A stretch of DNA of 64,000 nucleotides from NCBI GenBank assembly GCA_944391055.1, contig CALXSF010000013.1:1-64000 (forward strand). The letters are read 5' to 3'. This document shows, in pieces, positions 44,001-47,497 of this stretch (position 1 is the stretch's first letter; each line of letters starts with the position of its first letter). A model generated the notes under the pieces. The model did not search any database, was not told where the DNA came from, and worked only from the letters and a program-made list of their open reading frames with translations. Made by a program: the position numbers and the translations under genes. Origin of the DNA: an uncultured Kiritimatiellota bacterium. Its GTDB lineage: Bacteria > Verrucomicrobiota > Kiritimatiellia > RFP12 > DVOR01.

Positions 44001-46529
<2,529 letters not shown>

Positions 46530-46575
46530 ACGTGAAGTCCTCCTTGTCGGGCCCACGCGGGCCGACGCCTCCTTT

Positions 46576-46592
46576 TGCAACATCCGTGCCAA
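46576..46592 (-). promoter_or_regulatory. Sigma-54 (RpoN) promoter of clpB
   Basis: Minus-strand TTGGCACGGATGTTGCA matches the -24/-12 consensus TTGGCACG-N4-TTGCA with the required 10 bases between the invariant GG (46590-46589) and GC (46578-46577). The predicted start is near 46565, leaving a leader of about 36 bases with a strong ribosome site. Confidence 0.82.
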
Positions 46593-46637
46593 TCGCCCCG
46601 CCCCGCGCGAACGGCCCCGCCCGCCCCCTCCCCGCCC

Positions 46638-46672
46638 TGCCATTCGCGTGGCACACCGTGCCACGTTGGCAC
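46638..46672. promoter_or_regulatory. Putative enhancer-binding-protein sites upstream of clpB
   Basis: Four half-sites: TGCCA (46638-46642), TGGCAC (46649-46654), GTGCCA (46658-46663) and TGGCAC (46667-46672). The last three form two overlapping dyads with 3-base centres, spaced 9 bases apart. They lie about 75-105 bases upstream of the predicted start, where activators of sigma-54 normally bind. No CIRCE or CtsR-like motif is present. Confidence 0.6.
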
Positions 46673-46701
46673 ACCCCCCGCCCAACGTGTTTGCGCGGTC
46701 T

Positions 46702-46745
46702 GTTCCCCGGAACGCGCCGCGGTCCGCCCCGAGAGACGCCGTCCC
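46702..46745 (-). repeat. Dispersed intergenic repeat, copy B
   Basis: Reverse-complement counterpart of 39803-39847 with about two differences in 44 bases. It lies between divergent clpB and DUF1275 genes, upstream of the sigma-54 enhancer sites. Confidence 0.75.
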
Positions 46746-46788
46746 CCGCCCCGAGGGGCGCCGCCTTCCGCGCGGGGTTGTCCCGCTG

Positions 46789-46797
46789 TGGTATACT
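46789..46797 (+). promoter_or_regulatory. Extended -10 promoter of the DUF1275 gene
   Basis: TGTGg-TATACT ends 10 bases before the first ATG at 46808. Confidence 0.55.
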
Positions 46798-46807
46798 TCC
46801 GCGCGAC

Positions 46808-47497
46808 ATGAAGAGAGAGATGGCAGGGAATGGGTGCGGGCAGATGTCCGAGACCTTCCGCGTCGGGGCGTTCCTGGCGTGCGTCGGCGGGTTCCTGGAC
46901 GCTTACACCTTTCTTTGCCGGGGCGGCGTCTTCGCCAACGCGCAGACCGGCAACCTCGCCCTGCTTGGCATCCGTCTGGCCGCCGGGGACTGGGCGGGCG
47001 CCTGCGGCTATCTGCTCCCGGTGGTCGCCTTTGTCTTGGGCATCCTGCTGGCCGAGGCCCTGCGCCGCCTGTTCGGCCGCTGGCGGGCCCTCCACTGGCG
47101 CCAGCCGCTCCTGCTTGTCGAGGCCGCCACGCTGGCGGCGTGCGCCGCGCTCCCCGCCCTGCCGGACACGGCGGTCACCGTGGCCGTCTCCTTCGTCTGC
47201 GCGGTCCAGGCGCAGGGGTTCCGCAAGATCCACGGCAGCCCCATCGCCACCACCATGTGCACCGGCAACCTGCGCGCGGCCATCGAGGCCGCGCTGGCTT
47301 GGCGGCGCGGCGGGGATCCGGGCGCGCCGCGCCGCGGGCTCCACACGCTGGGCGCGACGGCTTGTTTTGTCCTGGGCGCGGCGATCGGGGCCGCGGCGGT
47401 CGCGTTCCTTTCCCACGGCGCGCTTTGGCTGCCCGTCGGCCTGCTGCTGGCCGCATGCCTGCTGCTTTTCCGCCGTCCCGAGGGGGAGGGGCGCTGA
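46808..47497 (+). CDS. DUF1275 (YoaK-like) membrane protein
   Basis: A 229-aa protein with about six helices. Family marks are [23 protein letters not shown]-type sequence (about 24-46) and the second half [23 protein letters not shown]. The DUF1275 family is widespread, possibly a transporter, with no agreed substrate. Starts at 46808, 46820 and 46844 are all possible; I chose the first because of the promoter distance. It is divergent from clpB, but there is no reason to tie the two together. Confidence 0.88.

Follow-up and report, generated by a model that had tools for sequence, protein, structure and literature searches.

The clpB promoter region

The window, by which we mean the whole stretch of 64,000 nucleotides analyzed here (positions 1 to 64,000 of contig CALXSF010000013.1 from an uncultured Kiritimatiellota bacterium), carries on its minus strand clpB (44001..46529), the product of which has 842 amino acids and the complete ClpB domain set (Clp_N, two AAA domains, ClpB_D2-small). 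The minus strand directly upstream of the gene reads GATTGGCACGGATGTTGCAAAAGGAGGCG. It includes, with clpB 46 bases downstream, the -24/-12 element TTGGCACGGATGTTGCA (46592-46576), which in a scan of the window matched the sigma-54 consensus TGGCACG-N4-TTGCW with zero mismatches and with GG-N10-GC spacing, as had been claimed in the original prediction, and which is the only exact match in the window. Promoter geometry places the predicted transcription start approximately 12 nt past the C of the -12 element (46577), at about 46565 on the minus strand, which is the start proposed before. The leader from there to the ATG at 46529 would be 36 nt long and has a good ribosome-binding site (AAGGAGGA, 46538-46545, minus strand). 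A divergent gene for a DUF1275 protein (46532-47497, plus strand) has the intergenic region in common with clpB.

ClpB is usually under the control of sigma-32, HrcA or CtsR. HrcA was found in none of 40 genomes of relatives (against 7 positives among 14 control genomes), and RpoH in none of the 40 above the TIGR02392 cut-off; weaker RpoH matches of about 135 bits, usually one per genome in a long frame, look RpoD-like. Both regulators thus seem to be missing from the lineage. It should be noted, however, that the genomes are metagenome-assembled (MAGs) and that the absences of HrcA and RpoH, and that of the activator EBP-A from some genomes (see below), may in part reflect their incompleteness.

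The sigma-54 machinery and its sites in the genome

The genome (2.15 Mb, a MAG of 27 contigs) has one rpoN gene, the absence of which had been named as a refutation of sigma-54 control. Core-binding and DNA-binding domains are present in RpoN, as is an RpoN-box-like motif (ARRTVAKYRE); its N-terminal activator-interacting domain scored 20.1 against a cut-off of 23.8. Within the phylum sample rpoN occurs in 114 of 115 genomes, and the one genome without it (L359) is also without a good clpB element. Exact -24/-12 sites are found genome-wide at three places only, namely upstream of clpB, of dnaK (contig C6) and of glnA for a type III glutamine synthetase (contig C1).

The dnaK gene is followed on the same strand by groES after a gap of 66 nt and by groEL after one of 30 nt. 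This gene order, which makes for an unusual chaperone operon, is retained in nearly all relatives examined, through the order (e.g., L366:611-4525). No second -24/-12 site was found inside the operon, either in this genome or in the relatives examined. Since the dnaK promoter is followed by groES and groEL on one strand, ClpB, DnaK and GroESL have one promoter type in common. The scope of the original prediction, which dealt with clpB, is therefore too narrow: dnaK-groESL has the same promoter type and the same kind of upstream array.

Conservation of the -24/-12 element

The regions upstream of clpB and dnaK from relatives were scored at 13 positions and compared with shuffled controls, for which the clpB score gave a null of about 2%. 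By this score the clpB element is present in all 15 genomes of the genus, in 12 of 15 from the other families of the order, in 11 of 26 from the other orders of the class and in 19 of 35 from the remaining phylum, and in 1 of 71 named genomes that do not belong to the PVC group. The phylum sampled here would be Verrucomicrobiota, and the class Kiritimatiellae. The dnaK element was found in 11 of 13 genus genomes, the remaining two having the near match TTGGCAC-N5-TTGTA, and in 17 of 17 genomes of the order. Other families of the phylum have a weaker GG-N10-GC element whose distance from the start codon of clpB is almost fixed, at -28 to -32 (L313, L316-L320, L325, L346, L348, L353, L360).

The pattern TTGGCAYRNNNNTTGCW has 53 matches in 17 genus genomes as compared to 4 for the reversed-pattern control, and the majority of these matches lie upstream of clpB, dnaK, glnA or gltB. 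That the -24/-12 element before clpB arose by chance in GC-rich intergenic DNA is therefore hardly conceivable: two-mismatch versions of the element are indeed no commoner in the window than expected by chance, but the presence of the element in every genus relative and the excess over the control refute this explanation. It is also quite unlikely that the chaperones are mainly transcribed from sigma-70 promoters, with the -24/-12 element being minor or vestigial. Tandem sigma66 and sigma54 promoters are known from hrcA-grpE of Chlamydia (PMC8762339), and our scan for sigma-70-like promoters, which found no match in 46500-46900, was a simple one biased to the Escherichia coli consensus; a minor or vestigial element would, however, not be expected to stay near-invariant over diverged species at two loci. 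From the conservation we infer that clpB and dnaK would be sigma-54-dependent in vivo. The proposal that clpB is under RpoN and thereby tied to a specific activator is supported, as far as sequence comparison can tell, by the occurrence of the element in all genus relatives and in most of the order and by the presence of rpoN.

An upstream array of half-sites in phase with the promoter

Upstream of the element three full half-sites are found on the minus strand: GTGCCA at -107 (46667-46672), TGGCAC at -98 (46658-46663) and GTGCCA at -89 (46649-46654). A fourth, partial one (TGGCA, 46638-46642, minus strand) was included in the phasing count. Two phased dyads had been predicted here. The first of them, GTGCCA-ACG-TGGCAC (46672-46658), is a perfect inverted repeat, and a phased array is conserved in the genus; the second, GTGCCA-N6-TGGCA (46654-46638), is imperfect. 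What recurs in the relatives is the dyad TGGCAC-N3(-5)-GTGCCA, formed here by the -98 and -89 half-sites (46663-46649), so that GTGCCA-N3-TGGCAC, as proposed, differs somewhat from the conserved site. The dyads are also not elements of the DUF1275 gene, since the arrays remain with clpB where the sequence further upstream differs.

GTGCCA or TGGCAC is present upstream of 28 of 28 clpB and dnaK promoters of the genus, and TGGCA/TGCCA half-sites number 3.68 per genus promoter versus 0.12 in shuffled sequences, forming an array of up to six copies between about -60 and -140. Relative to the predicted start the half-sites have a period of 10.8 bp that is locked to the promoter, which was matched by 0 of 5000 random-offset nulls, a comparison in which the kinship of the species is ignored. 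The arrays before clpB and dnaK have a similar phase, and descent alone would hardly account for this agreement between two unrelated loci. A search of the genome for other dyads beside -24/-12 elements had also been suggested; the dnaK promoter does have the array, but in the genus it is absent from the glnA and gltB promoters. Being conserved and promoter-phased, the half-sites are putative upstream activator sites. In the other families of the order GACA-N3-TGTC dyads are found at the place of the array (12 of 29, shuffled maximum 2).

Rather than forming clean dyads, many of the half-sites are direct repeats spaced by approximately 11 bp, which would fit an operator of another protein, for example a repressor or a binder of 11-bp direct repeats. 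Sigma-54 would then depend on an activator that works from solution or on an unrelated one. For the former there is a precedent in Chlamydia, where CtcC, a protein with no DNA-binding domain, activates sigma-54 (PMC7482065). We regard this explanation as unlikely because the position of the array and its phasing with the promoter fit an enhancer, because the activator EBP-B described below has an intact Fis-type helix-turn-helix, and because the different dyads of the other families go with a different recognition helix of EBP-B.

Candidate activators

The search for enhancer-binding proteins that had been proposed yielded, with ClpB/ClpC-like matches set aside, three sigma-54-activator-type proteins in the genome of the window, namely EBP-A, EBP-B and an FHA-AAA protein without GAFTGA, and allowed a specific activator to be nominated. 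EBP-A (GAF-AAA-Fis) has an intact GAFTGA loop and occurs order-wide. EBP-B (L128:5131-6483) is of the NtrC type (REC-AAA-Fis with an intact Fis-type helix-turn-helix, HTH_8) and forms one ortholog group across the order with 100/97 support; its loop reads GAYTGA in this genome as compared to GAFTGA in the relatives of the genus. The EBP-B gene adjoins that of a cytosolic PAS-HisKA-HATPase histidine kinase (contig C7; L128:3959-5131), which is its putative cognate kinase. The third gene of the operon (L128:6483-7193) encodes a DnaJ_CXXCXGXG zinc-finger protein with a likely signal peptide; it is present at each EBP-B locus of the genus examined and was not detected in other families. In two species (G003 and G006) the operon lies approximately 3 kb from clpB. 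No half-site array was seen upstream of the kinase gene, so autoregulation of the kinase operon is not supported.

Within the genus, the recognition helix of EBP-B has the sequence LGIPLRTLYRR, except in G013 (LGISVRTLYRR); elsewhere it is mostly LGISRRT(L/I)xRK. It thus appears to have changed in step with the upstream dyads, which, as essentially one change is involved, is suggestive only.

EBP-A tracks the divergent glnA/gltB sites, its gene being approximately 7 kb from glnA/gltB in four species. The divergent genes glnA (type III) and gltB have paired -24/-12 elements in several species (L002, L164, L178, L181), and these are missing where EBP-A is missing. EBP-A, being order-wide and in one genome (G007) encoded near dnaK, could contribute to the control of the chaperones. 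However, that sigma-54 drives clpB and dnaK via EBP-A, or via several activators jointly, with EBP-B serving other genes, is improbable, intact as EBP-A is: two genomes (G002 and G004, completeness 91% and 84%) have EBP-B and an FHA protein only and yet retain both promoters with their arrays, and the genes that EBP-A accompanies, glnA/gltB, have no array at their promoters. EBP-A as the sole activator is disfavored for the same reasons. The FHA-AAA protein (L013:896-2206), which is sigma-54-activator-like and found in many genus genomes, was rejected as activator because it lacks GAFTGA. An extra activator is present in a subset of the genus (G009, G014, and G016; L125, L192), which from its N-terminal sequence we take to be RtcR; a sigma-54 site adjoins its gene in G014. 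RtcR is a regulator of RNA repair, and this protein was therefore set aside. EBP-B is thus left as the best candidate for the activator of clpB and dnaK.

Relation to known systems

Heat-shock control is usually taught as a matter of sigma-32, HrcA or CtsR. The target genes of HrcA/CIRCE and sigma-32 are identical to those considered here; however, neither regulator was found in the 40 relatives, and control would be by activation rather than by derepression or sigma competition. With NtrB/NtrC the system has in common a PAS-HisKA-HATPase kinase, a REC-AAA(GAFTGA)-Fis regulator and upstream dyads at about -100. It differs in that the targets are chaperone rather than nitrogen genes and in that the promoter-phased array comprises up to six half-sites.

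In C. trachomatis, also a member of the PVC group, tandem sigma66-sigma54 promoters precede the hrcA-grpE(-dnaK) operon (PMC8762339), and there is a pair of a sensor kinase and an NtrC-type regulator, CtcB/CtcC (AtoS/AtoC), of which CtcC has no DNA-binding domain (PMC7482065). The likeness thus extends to the regulator type, to a sigma-54 promoter on heat-shock genes and to the lack of RpoH. Chlamydia, however, retains HrcA and the sigma66 promoter, and its sigma-54 regulon is mostly developmental, whereas here HrcA was not found (0 of 40), EBP-B has a Fis helix-turn-helix and the upstream arrays are phased. In an in silico survey of 2025, sigma-54 promoters were found to be enriched at the genes for GroEL, GroES, DnaK, DnaJ, GrpE, IbpA, and COG0542 in Planctomycetota and Bacteroidota (PMC12316311), thus on cytosolic chaperones including the COG of ClpB. 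The accessible text of that survey does not mention Kiritimatiellae, cites Verrucomicrobiota for other gene groups and links the chaperones to neither an activator nor upstream sites. Heat induces ClpB, DnaK and GroEL in Rhodopirellula, where rpoN itself is not regulated (PMC2754498). Given these precedents, and as no specific activator or phased enhancer was found assigned to clpB or dnaK of this lineage in the accessible literature, we consider the system a variant of known sigma-54 control of chaperones.

Proposed mechanism and significance

Taken together, clpB and dnaK-groES-groEL probably form a small sigma-54 stress regulon (estimated probability about 0.75). Sigma-54 RNA polymerase would wait at the -24/-12 element in a closed complex. 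The cytosolic PAS histidine kinase would sense a proteotoxic signal, stress being the presumed stimulus, and phosphorylate EBP-B, which would bind, on one helix face and in phase with the promoter, the array of TGGCAC/GTGCCA half-sites that extends from about -60 to -140. The bound EBP-B would assemble its AAA+ ring and remodel the closed complex, upon which ClpB, DnaK, GroES and GroEL would rise together. Protein repair is thus probably wired to a two-component signal, in which the co-operonic DnaJ-like CXXCXGXG protein might have a role.

A wider reading, to which we give somewhat less than an even chance, is that order-wide, and in part across the Verrucomicrobiota, one sigma-54 two-component system replaced the classical heat-shock regulators, that the DnaJ-zinc-finger protein of the genus operon may report unfolded protein and that TGGCAC-N3-GTGCCA took the place of GACA-N3-TGTC as the enhancer code along with a change in the recognition helix of the activator.

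With ClpB, DnaK and GroESL under sigma-54, the output of chaperones would depend on a switch powered by ATP that has hardly any basal leak, and would follow a kinase signal. The sigma-54 regulon is tiny (the chaperones and glnA/gltB) and has very few activators, so that the assignment of regulator to targets is directly testable. And with enhancer sequence and recognition helix shifting as a pair, the genus and its relatives may offer a natural case of co-evolution of a regulator with its sites.
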